From contig NC_085869.1 of assembly GCF_034702125.1 (NCBI RefSeq), positions 56,154,841 through 56,218,840 on the forward strand: a stretch of DNA of 64,000 bases, in the 5' to 3' direction. Shown here piece by piece: positions 93 through 16,100 of this stretch. The notes beneath the pieces are model-generated. The model did no database searches. It saw only the letters and a program-made list of their open reading frames with translations, and was not told the origin of the DNA. The position numbers were made by a program, and so were the translations under genes. The stretch is from Engraulis encrasicolus (lineage: Eukaryota > Chordata > Actinopteri > Clupeiformes > Engraulidae). Positions within the stretch are counted from its first letter, which is position 1, and each line of letters opens with the position of its first letter.

Positions 93-1173
93 AAGTTGCA
101 AAGCCAACCGCAACCCCAGTTCCGTTTGAGAGTGTCTTTTCCTGACGTTGTCTAAAGGACATGTTGCAGAGTATATGTAGACATTTTACAATGCTTGCTT
201 CCTACTTCATTTGACTAAAATATCCCTTTTAGTTCATATTAAATGAATTACAAATCACTACCTGCCCTTAGTTACATTGTGTTGTGTAATGGTTGCATTT
301 GTAGAAGTGATGAAGCCACCAGCAACCCCAGGTCGGTTTGAAAGTGCTTGCGCCTTCGGTTGTCTTTGTTGTTGAGTTGTCTGAAGGACCTCTTGTCCTC
401 TCTCTGTCTGTTTGCTTCTTTGGTTGCAGTAAAGGTACAGTCTACACATTTTAGTTATACTTAGTTATAATGTGCAAAATCATATTACAACCTAAACTTA
501 GTAACCTTCTTGTGTTTATTGGTTTCATTTGAAAAAGTTGCAAAGCCACGCGCAACCCCTTGTTGGTTTGGGAATGTTTGCACCTTGAAGTGTCTAGGAC
601 AGGTGTTGTCCTCTGTCTCTCTGTCTGTTTGCTACTTTTGTTGTGGTAAATATTTGTCTACATATTTTGGTTGGCACATGACAATCTACGGTACACGTCT
701 TGATAATGTTTGTTCATAGTTGCAATTGTCGCGATTGTCAGAAGTGGCAAAGCCACTAGCAACTAAAGGTTGGTGTCTGAGTGTTGCACCTTGAGTTTAA
801 ATGGGTGCGTTTTTTAATACACAAGTTGAACTCTCTCTGGTTGCTACATGGATGCAGACATTAAGTTAGTAAGCAAAGACAAATAACAACCCATCCATAG
901 TGACCTTCTCTTGTGTTGGTGAGCTTCTATTGTCTGTGGAAATTGTTGCATATTCAGAAGTGACAAAGCCACCCACACCCTCAAGTTGGTTTCAGAATGT
1001 TTGCATCTTGACTTGTCAAAAGAACATGTCTCCCTCTGTGAACTTGCTACGTTTGTTGTGACGAAATGATGTCTACATAAACTATATTAGTGACCATGAC
1101 AACATGTACATGTCATTATATTGGTTAATAATCGTTGCATTTTCAGAAGAGGTGAAGAAGCCAGCGACACCAG
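93..1173 (+). CDS. PEVK microexons, repeat block 1
   Basis: 27-nt segments read in phase 1, with the preceding exon supplying the G of GAA. Positions and peptides are 93-119 EVAKPTATP (donor mutated to gttccg), 305-331 EVMKPPATP, 742-768 EVAKPLATK, 958-984 EVTKPPTPS and 1147-1173 EEVKKPATP. Acceptors are TAG or CAG and donors are GTTGGT or GTCGGT. A sixth slot near 533-559 has lost its acceptor AG and looks dead. The E-V-K-P-rich composition is what names PEVK segments in titin. Exon status is inferred from frame and splice dinucleotides, not from transcripts. Confidence 0.65.
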
Positions 1174-13100: not shown

Positions 13101-16100
13101 TATTTGAACAGCCGGCAACACAACACGTTTTCGTCATGTTGCGCGTGAACAATGCTAGTCTACAGGTTCGTATCTGTTGTTTATTAAACCCTAACATCAC
13201 CAATTGACTTGCATTGCCTGTTTTCCCCCACAAATGGGCGTAACGCACATGGAAAACGTCACGCCGTTCATGAGTATACCCTGCATGTGAGATGGTTACA
13301 AATACATGTGGAGTGTTTATGTCCCAACTGTTGATTCTGTACTTATTTTGACAAGAGTGCTTAATTTATGTATGCAACAGATCCGAAACAATTAAAAAAA
13401 AACACACCACACATCAAAGATTGATGGAGGTATAAAGGTGTTGACAGTTAGAATGTTTAAACAAGACAAACAAGACGTACATTGACCAAAAGTAAGGTAT
13501 TAATGAGGCTTAAAGGTGCACTGTGTATGACGGTGGCCCGAGTAGGTATTGCAACTGTGCTGCTAATTGAAACTGTGGTGCCTATTACCTATAGCTAATA
13601 ATTTGTATTTCTGAAAATTCAAAAAGGCAGACGTAGAGAAGATTCACCTCTTCATGTATGAATTTTCCCAGTCATAATGAATACTTAGAATTGTCTTATT
13701 GTTTTTTTTTCTTTTTTTCTTTTCAGAACTGAAAAAGGACGCTGGACCTCCAGGTGAGTGTGAGATTATTTAGTCTTGTGTAAGTAAGTCAGAAACAATA
13801 CTTGAGTGGCTTACAAATGCTTTGAAGGCTGGACTTGTGGACACTTTTGGACTTGTGGCTGGCAACTACCAAATGGGATACACCTTGGAGAGAAACCCAC
13901 AGAGTTGCAGTGAAAATTGGAATGTCTCTGTAACCCAAACAATGAAATCTTATCCTCTTCATTGGCGCCCCAGGCTGCGGCAGGACTCCTTATCTCCCTG
14001 AAGGACAAGCAGTGTTTTGGACTTCTCTGCCTCCATTACCCAGTCTCCCTGGGTACCTGAGGTTGTTTTGTCTTACTGGGGGCAGGCCAAGGCCATCTCC
14101 ATGACGACCGATACTTGGCTCCCAGTGGGAAAATGCTCCCCGGGCCCCCTACCCCTCCCCCAACCCTAAACAACTCCTATGTCTTTCTGCCTTATTCTGT
14201 TAGTGCCAAGTCCTTTAATGTAGTTAGCGGAGGAGAAGAGAGGAAAGGAGAGAACATGAACACACAGGCGCGCGCACACACACGTTGTGCAATAAAGTGT
14301 ATAATGTCTTATGTGTTTATGTACAGTAGTAGCCTGCTGCTAGACAACTTAATTTCCTCCAGGAGCTCAGCTACCACGTGCAACAAAATGACAAGTAGCG
14401 ATTACGCCATGTCACGGAAATGTTCGCTTTCTTTGTTACTTCCATAGCGTCGGTATTTTTTTTTTGTTATAGTTTTTTTCACGTAGGCTTCTCGCACGTC
14501 CATGCAAGGTCTGCCTTTTCCGATGGCGTGGGATTTCCGAATCAGCAACTACATGCAATTGGGCCAGGACTAAGAAAATGTCAGACGACTTGACCGACAA
14601 CTCAAACTGACAGACACAGCTCTCCACATCTGTCCTGGTCTTATTCGCTCCTCCACCACTCCATTTTAACGTCGCTGTTACTGTTATTATTAGCCTACTA
14701 GCATTCACCAACACAGAACCTTGCCATAACCACCACAACATTCCTTATCATCCATACAAAACCTACTAAACAGAAGTAACCCGCGCTAGTCATATTATTG
14801 AAACTGGCTTCAGCCTGTGCGCGAGCCGCTTGTTTCATTGAAACAAGCAGTGGCTTTGGTGCGCGCTGTGAAGCAGGCAGTCAATAGGCGAAAGGCTACG
14901 TTACTGTGATTACATGACTAACCAATGGCTGTAGCCTACATCATGACGGAAGTGTCCATGGGTAATGTAGGAAACCTTGTCGTCGTTGGGTTCATCATTG
15001 AAGCAGCGGTTTAGGCGTTCATAATGTATTCCAGTCGGGCGCTACCAGCCAAATTGGCGTGTAGATCATTTTCTCTACTAGCCAAAATGAAATTTCACGC
15101 GCATTTGGCGGGTTGCGGGTGTTAGCCTAATTTAGAGCCCTGGTTGTCATTAATGACACATTATTACAACCGAACCACAACCAAATGGCACAGTATGACA
15201 GCAATCAATGTTCAAGTGAGCTACTTCACAATTTACTAGATTAAAAATTGGCAACATTGTCTTTTTTAATCTGTTGAAATGGGAACTCTCCAGGTTCCAC
15301 CAACACTGGAAAAAGTTGTCAAGTAATTGATTATCTCAAAGTAAAATGAAGTAGTTACGCTGGCAGATATTTTAAACATCTGATAAATAATTCCCAGATA
15401 GAGACGGTTTTATTTTTGAAGAAATTGTGGCTCATATTATGTTTGACTGAATCATTTTACCAAGATTTACTTTTTTTCGCAGAGAAGAAAGTCTCTAAAC
15501 TGCCCGACGGCTATGCTGCACCTCGTTTCACCATGCGCATGGGTGACAAGACCATACCCCTGCACGATAAACTGCGTCTGGAGTGTAGATTCACCGGCTC
15601 TCCTAAGCTGTTCGTCACCTGGTACAAGGATGGCAAGCAGCTGTACGCTTCATACAGGTAATGAGGAAAAGACTCTCTCACACTTCTCCCATTTAATTTC
15701 ACATTAAAGATCTGTTACTGTAAAGCTATTTTTGGGCCTTTCTTGCCTTTATTTGAAAGGACAGTTTGAGAGGAGACAGGAAGGTAATAAGAGAGATTGA
15801 GACAGGGAAGGATCAATAATTTACCTAGGGCTGGAATCGAAACTGGGTACCCAGCGCAACAGTGCAGTGCCATAGCTGTTGGGCCTACTTAAAGGGTTTT
15901 GCGTTTCTTACCATGAACGGCCAAAATATGTACATCACATTACAATAGGCACATTACATGTTATTCATAGTGACTACCCATTGGTGTGGGGCAATGAGCT
16001 AATGCACCACTATGAATGGCCAAACTACCCATGGTGGACTCAGATTAATGTCTGGCCTGGGTCATTTCCCAACCCTTCCACCGCGCTCTCCTTTCCTGTC

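Follow-up and report, generated by a model that had tools for sequence, protein, structure and literature searches.

A titin-like locus with an array of 27-nt exon slots

The stretch of DNA analysed here (the window) covers 64,000 nucleotides (nt) of the anchovy Engraulis encrasicolus (contig NC_085869.1, positions 56,154,841 to 56,218,840 of the forward strand) and carries, together with sequence upstream of it, a tandem array of 27-nt exon slots that lies between blocks of Ig domains. The locus probably represents a titin-derived, titin-like gene, that is, a dispersed copy of a segment of the titin I-band in which one microexon has been amplified. Judging from the sequence, we consider it probable that many of the slots are spliced into the mRNA, and the product would most likely be a flexible linker between Ig blocks, in which each slot is nearly dispensable.

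By slot we mean the segment of a monomer, nearly always 27 nt long, whose place is between an AG and a GT, whether or not these are kept; negative coordinates denote positions upstream of window position 1. A profile search (nhmmer) of the window and 34 kb upstream of it yielded 88 monomer matches, exclusively on the + strand, spanning -33.9 kb to +10.3 kb; the profile was built from 81 ungapped 27-mers and is biased toward ungapped slots. The 83 fully covered slots measure 27 nt in 80 cases, 24 nt in one and 28 nt in two, with AG kept in 67 and GT in 71. In 57 of the 83, AG and GT flank an open, in-frame segment of a length divisible by three. These intact slots are all in phase 1, and the same number of slots fits the definition of a microexon as 3-27 nt between AG and GT. 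An initial annotation of this DNA had described more than 20 such AG/GT segments, all in phase 1. The count holds for the window, where 22 of the 30 scored slots are intact, the earliest at 305-331; eight of the 30 lack AG or GT, including 93-119, which has no GT. Once the upstream 34 kb is included, the array proves larger than had been claimed.

The short symmetric slots are rich in P, E, V and K. Their peptides form six types, one ending in (R/C)ATP and another starting with EVA(K/T). The nine-residue pattern E-V-x-K-P-P-x-x-P given in the initial annotation describes them in part, and variants with R, C, L, M, H or N depart from it. When a 333-residue peptide of the array was searched against Pfam, no family matched at E up to 1.

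A spliced model made up of 56 slots and 29 other exons, 85 in total, runs through 2524 codons without a stop, as anticipated by the earlier proposal that the array joins in frame to a 27-nt exon at 13727-13753 and then to 14 Igs. In the model, 56 of the 57 intact slots join in frame with this exon and with 21 Igs; the slot at -8516 was excluded because, with AG and GT both present, its final T would create a stop at the junction. Besides the 14 Igs of the window, the locus holds seven of the same kind upstream, interleaved with pieces of the array. Half of the window Igs (7/14) are encoded by a single exon and the other half are split across two. PF07679 (I-set) scored above the cut-off in both Igs scanned, and the closest PDB structure for one Ig is the titin fragment 3b43.

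We regard it as most improbable that the slots are an artefact of assembly or chance, with spurious AG/GT pairs in a repeat and an inflated copy number. AG-N27-GT spacing is indeed frequent by chance, since the + strand has 77 occurrences in 1-10300 and, in the window outside this interval, still 35 for every 10.3 kb, so that it is weak as a sole criterion, and the published anchovy assembly, if that is the same one, used PacBio continuous long reads (CLR; PMC13403563). However, open AG-N27-GT segments with at least seven of nine residues from the set PEVKATS number 57 on the + strand versus 5 on the - strand in -34000..10300 (1 and 5, respectively, in the remaining 53.7 kb of the window), and this strand contrast rules out pure chance spacing. 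Divergence among the longest of the listed repeat copies is 4-15%, higher than would be expected from simple duplication during assembly, and the 2524-codon model stays open throughout.

The array is built like a satellite with a higher-order repeat

Each monomer consists of an exon slot and its intron and measures ~210 bp, the intervals between slots being mostly 157-205 nt. Clustering of the monomers by their flanks alone gave four large groups, which a finer cut resolved into six types, each with 10 to 13 copies (71 copies in total). The six types come back in the same order along the array and compose a higher-order repeat of ~1.28 kb. Repeat copies were found at offsets of 1279-1281 nt (90-92% identity at offsets 1279 and 1281), at near multiples and at other spacings, and are 85-96% identical among the longest copies listed. 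Several monomer types in a repeated multimer is one mark of a tandem satellite with a higher-order repeat, and the array has this structure. The earlier view of short, phase-compatible, PEVK-like slots amplified in tandem with their introns in a titin-related gene is borne out by these monomers.

It is possible, and we put it forward tentatively, that the array is a coding satellite, whose exon-plus-intron monomers, as in centromeric higher-order repeats, expand and become homogenised through unequal exchange and yet are spliced into a flexible segment of the protein. The length of the linker would then shift by nine residues per step, through copy number and through loss or gain of splice sites, at no cost to the frame.

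Between slots 4588 and 6308 the gap is 1693 nt, compared with the usual about 190, and about 1.5 kb of unrelated sequence occupies the array intron there (window about 4690-6200, limits set by eye).

Splice sites and selection at the slots and Igs

The Igs are clearly under purifying selection. All 21 are stop-free, dN/dS ranges from 0.10 to 0.36 in 15 pairs among six upstream copies, and in 14 pairs with titin pN is 0.10-0.25 and pS 0.57-0.88, synonymous change being near-saturated and non-synonymous change modest.

For the slots, the most telling result is the distribution of frame lesions. Frameshifts or internal stops are present in 0 of 57 splice-intact slots versus 4 of 26 splice-dead slots (Fisher p 0.008), and when junction stops are counted the lesions amount to 1/57 versus 8/26. 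The numbers are small, and the pattern is the one expected if splice-competent slots are translated. The donor side of the slots also appears constrained: within types, positions +3 to +6 changed more slowly than the flanks (3 events in 24 sites, 0.125 per site), and between monomer groups, where older change is seen, the first 8 donor-side bases differ by 0.136 versus 0.336 for the slot and 0.32-0.47 for the flanks. Donors of intact slots are comparable in strength to donors of Ig exons (median 11.6 vs 11.5), as scored with a small matrix of 42 donors and 43 acceptors taken from the Ig exons of both loci, which it also scores. Within types, indels are absent from all 71 slots, and the nearest flanks also show few (1 and 2 patterns). 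Non-synonymous changes led into PEVKATS residues in 42 of 65 cases, with 0.50 expected (one-sided p 0.012).

A number of results weigh against spliced and translated slots in a titin-like gene. The initial annotation had set a comparison of substitution rates beforehand as its refutation test, and the rates came out equal, with unique substitutions per site within types of 0.346 in slots and 0.29-0.41 in flanks. Since loss of one symmetric exon keeps the frame, the slot-versus-flank rate alone is not decisive. AG and GT change just as often, with 7 and 5 unique changes, respectively, in 12 sites each. The ratio of non-synonymous to synonymous changes (N:S, stops counted as N) is 38:18 within types versus 40.7:15.3 expected (p 0.45), and 71:33 on a tree of 78 monomers (p 0.27). 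Nor are stops depleted, with 6 on the tree versus 4.3 expected and 3 within types versus about 2.2 expected; of these three, one lies in a splice-intact slot. Slot codons were examined for strong purifying selection both within types and on the tree, and none was seen; in N:S, splice-intact (24:14) and broken slots (17:4) show no more than a tendency in the hoped-for direction, from few changes.

The contrast in frame lesions must itself be read with care, as the copies are related and Fisher tests overstate it. The four lesions correspond to about 3 events, and with dead branches making up 27% of tree length, 3/3 events on them gives about p 0.02 (one of the three monomers lies outside the tree). 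Slot -8516 is splice-intact and would nevertheless give a junction stop, and the final slot base is also part of the donor site, so that the junction-stop count is not a pure signal of translation. The PEVKATS set is our own choice and its p value is uncorrected. Acceptors of the slots are weak, with a median of 5.3 versus 12.0 for Ig exons, while still above 96% of random AGs. In a titin-like protein of the sardine (see below), 15 of 19 Igs score higher to the titin run T than to the array locus, which makes orthology mixed. The copy number, finally, depends on the assembly.

Several of these results would be expected of a fossil array, in which a once-real microexon has become an intronic satellite of a working titin-like gene and the upstream Ig block is spliced to 13727, with the slots ignored. 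Such an array would show the slot rate equal to the flank rate, the freely lost AG and GT, the near-neutral N:S, the undepleted stops and the weak acceptors, and its satellite-like growth and the element inserted into one slot would cause no surprise. We consider this explanation less likely, given that frameshifts and internal stops are confined to splice-dead slots, that slot donors match those of Ig exons, that the donor side differs less between groups than slot or flanks, and that a sardine protein model contains a repeat of the same period. As for the spliced linker that we favour, a symmetric microexon is nearly free to lose, hence drift of single slots is expected even with the linker as a whole in use.

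Relation to titin

The strongest I-set matches of the genome, among the best 150 of 2217 candidates, cluster at 15.0-15.4 Mb of the same contig, where the longest open frame reaches 5927 codons. We read this cluster as a putative pair of adjacent titin genes; in eel, zebrafish and fugu, two connectin genes are near neighbours on a single chromosome (PMC12198301). The array locus lies at 56.1-56.2 Mb, ~41 Mb from the cluster. Titin proper was rejected as the identity of the locus by this location, and the array is accordingly misplaced in the initial annotation, which had taken it for part of titin.

In the 264 kb examined around the locus, part of which reads N, a motif test gave no Fn3-like motif, a search with one Ig profile gave no Ig outside the block, and four short kinase-like motif matches were found. 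The Ig profile gave no further Ig in the 100 kb past the window, where part again reads N. That the array is a PEVK spring of titin, its length tuned through regulated skipping of nine-codon exons, is quite improbable, even though short exons of compatible phase, with a high content of P, E, V and K, adjoin titin-type Igs, one of these Igs having titin 3b43 as its nearest solved structure. The putative titin locus is elsewhere on the contig, Fn3-like motifs and Igs past the block are missing from the 264 kb within the scope just given, and the array peptide is without a Pfam family. The PEVK-like stretches of the related titin are, moreover, longer than the array exons and of other sequence.

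Among the best 150 of 285 candidates, one window Ig has its closest relatives in this genome within the locus itself and in an Ig run of one titin gene. A 36-kb section of that gene contains a run of 16 Igs of one kind at 15118170-15126214 of the same contig, each scoring more than 120 bits to the window Ig profile. The 14 window Igs match Igs T_03 to T_16 of this run in order and are broadly colinear with them; for 11 of the 14, the best titin match is the one expected from the order (exceptions W_12, W_13 and W_18). In the Ig tree, the pairs W08/T03, W16/T11 and W20/T15 have starred support, and many forks are open. The upstream copies W_02-W_07 cluster with W_09, which suggests that one Ig type was amplified locally.

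In the titin gene, the last Ig of the block is directly followed by two 27-nt exon candidates in phase 1, with the peptides AVKKAPVKT and DVRRAPVVE, as well as by a 39-nt candidate. The top match of the monomer profile in the 36 kb falls on the 3' splice site of the 39-nt candidate, in register, with E 0.0018; the next match has E 0.2.

Relatives in other fish

A titin-like protein of the sardine Sardina pilchardus has 19 such Igs, and between its Ig 12 and Ig 13 lies a linker with a period of nine residues, formed by three copies of DVKKAPETT and two variants. Two pairs between the sardine and the array locus have starred support (W_19/Sard_09 and W_21/Sard_11). Comparison of the N- and C-terminal ends of the sardine protein with the locus revealed no convincing homology. 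In carp, fragment P0023 contains four Igs of this kind, with WYKDGKQ(L/I/V)YASYR, and runs straight into the next Ig, linker-free, and a Poeciliopsis fragment (P0137) has a few related Igs, likewise linker-free. The microexons may therefore be a novelty of clupeiforms, unless gene prediction overlooked them in these two fragments.

Proposed origin of the array

The ancestor would have had a few microexons after the last Ig of the block, as in the related titin. In a titin-like copy, one microexon with about 180 nt of intron would have been duplicated in tandem, the copies diverging into six types. Amplification of this six-type block, in the manner of a satellite higher-order repeat, would have followed and produced the several array pieces that lie between Ig blocks, with at least 83 slots in all. 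As intact slots are in phase 1 at both ends, the reading frame survives whether a given slot is included, skipped or lost. With loss of a slot neutral to the frame, the length of the linker would drift in nine-residue steps, and selection would hardly act on any single copy.

Lone diverged 27-nt exon candidates with strong splice sites precede two Ig blocks that follow arrays, at -16609..-16583 and at 13727-13753. These are perhaps constitutive ends of the linker.

Known systems and significance

Micro-exon genes of schistosomes are not known to be related by descent to the array gene. The schistosome genes resemble the array in being assembled from numerous very short exons whose lengths are mostly divisible by three, and differ in that they encode secreted parasite proteins and have exons mostly of 15 nt and introns of 0.1-5 kb (PMC10526429). 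Among the references of that paper is a 1988 report which, to go by its title, concerns tandemly repeated exons coding 81-base repeats. Closer in kind are the PEVK exons of titin (connectin), with duplication of a PEVK-C block in human and some other mammals: short PEVK-type exons and growth by tandem exon-plus-intron blocks are common to both, and neutral change in PEVK exon number is also allowed for (PMC6469411). The array differs from titin PEVK in its 27-nt exons, its place outside titin and between Ig blocks, and its satellite-like six-type unit with at least 83 slots.

Among individual proteins, the 'titin-like isoform X2' of Sardina pilchardus (P0017) shares with the locus the succession of Ig block, nine-residue-period linker and Ig block, with Igs of the same kind, and is 55% identical over 52% of the model. 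It has three exact linker repeats and two variants versus 83 slots, as well as another order of Igs, and is known from a protein model alone. A 'neurofascin-like' protein of Alosa pseudoharengus (P0001, 376 residues) has four Igs of the same kind, 63% identical over 77% of a 486-residue query; it differs in that its model is linker-free, and it clusters with sardine Igs in the tree. The teleost titin pair would be the source of the Ig block and, by inference, of the microexons, with the array locus as a further copy about 41 Mb away. Among the matches listed in PubMed Central, a collection outside whose scope most subscription papers fall, there was no earlier array of 27-nt PEVK exons.

If the slots are spliced, the locus offers a natural test of how far an entropic linker can be built from interchangeable exons, and of how the splicing machinery copes with 27-nt exons that are nearly identical, number in the dozens and recur about every 210 nt. 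Splicing of the slots would also mean that a piece of the titin I-band became a separate gene in a fish group, and that satellite-type exchange can amplify a coding exon with the reading frame safe. A coding satellite in the sense set out above would be an extreme amplification of a vertebrate microexon, and linker length could differ between individuals. If the slots are not spliced, the locus clearly exemplifies the conversion of an exon into a satellite within an intron.

Coordinates of the array, slots, element and Ig exons in the window (strand and remarks where applicable)
Feature	Position	Strand	Remarks
Main array of tandem monomers	27..7409	+	extends upstream to about -9.1 kb, more pieces to -33.9 kb; nhmmer, repeat offsets
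Inserted element, inverted ends of 338 nt	7410-9608		ends 99% complementary; inserted at end of slot 7384, splits array
Final monomers past inserted element	9610..10314	+	nhmmer
Slot, splice-dead	93..119	+	no GT (TT instead)
Slot, intact	305..331	+	EVMKPPATP
Slot, splice-dead	535..561	+	no AG
Slot, intact	742..768	+	EVAKPLATK
Slot, intact	958..984	+	EVTKPPTPS
Slot, intact	1147..1173	+	EEVKKPATP
Slot, splice-dead	1373-1399	+	no GT
Slot, intact	1584..1610	+	EVVKPPATP
Slot, splice-dead	1814-1840	+	no AG
Slot, intact	2021..2047	+	EVAKPLATK
Slot, intact	2235..2261	+	EVTKPPTSS
Slot, intact	2424..2450	+	EEVKKPATP
Slot, intact	2650..2676	+	EVAKPPATP
Slot, intact	2861..2887	+	EVVKPPATP
Slot, intact	3091..3117	+	EVAKSCTTP
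Slot, splice-dead	3298..3324	+	no AG, in-frame stop
Slot, intact	3514..3540	+	EVTKPPSSP
Slot, intact	3711..3737	+	EEVKKPATP
Slot, intact	3936..3962	+	EVAKPPATP
Slot, intact	4151..4177	+	EVVTPPATP
Slot, intact	4381..4407	+	EVAKSCTTP
Slot, splice-dead	4588-4614	+	no AG, in-frame stop
Slot, intact	6308..6334	+	EVTKPPSSP
Slot, intact	6505..6531	+	EEVKKPATP
Slot, intact	6730..6756	+	EVAKPPATP
Slot, intact	6947..6973	+	EVVTPPATP
Slot, splice-dead	7177-7203	+	no AG
Slot, interrupted by inserted element	7384..7410	+	outside the 83 scored
Slot, intact	9819..9845	+	EVTKPPTSP
Slot, intact	10014..10040	+	EEVKKTATP
Slot, splice-dead	10239-10265	+	no GT
27-nt exon	13727..13753	+	ELKKDAGPP; strong splice sites (donor 14.1, acceptor 18.3, own-locus scores)
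Ig 1	15483..16533	+	exons 15483-15657 and 16391-16533
Ig 2	16807..17898	+	exons 16807-16948 and 17756-17898
Ig 3	18965..20604	+	exons 18965-19106 and 20462-20604
Ig 4	20859..22009	+	exons 20859-21000 and 21867-22009
Ig 5	22899..23183	+	single exon
Ig 6	23421..28850	+	exons 23421-23575 and 28721-28850, 5.1-kb intron
Ig 7	29145..29429	+	single exon
Ig 8	29622..29906	+	single exon
Ig 9	35170..35454	+	single exon
Ig 10	36144..36428	+	single exon
Ig 11	37978..38262	+	single exon
Ig 12	39353..39640	+	single exon
Ig 13	42850..43829	+	exons 42850-42991 and 43687-43829
Ig 14	46429..48565	+	exons 46429-46570 and 48423-48565; last Ig found

Introns within the Igs

Six of the 14 window Igs share an intron at one AG|GT point (TACAG|GTACAAC, phase 2), at 15658-16390, 16949-17755, 19107-20461, 21001-21866, 42992-43686 and 46571-48422. 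In the titin run all 16 Igs are unsplit, as are the seven upstream Igs of the locus. From the sequence, the six introns look like cases of intron gain, which to our knowledge is rare in vertebrates. The introns of Ig 3 and Ig 13 have their last 42 nt in common (90%), and that of Ig 13 starts and finishes with copies of the exon edges. Ig 6 is split elsewhere, in phase 0, and its intron (23576-28720) carries repeats present elsewhere in the region; an open frame within it, at 23953-24735, looks by eye like a reverse transcriptase.

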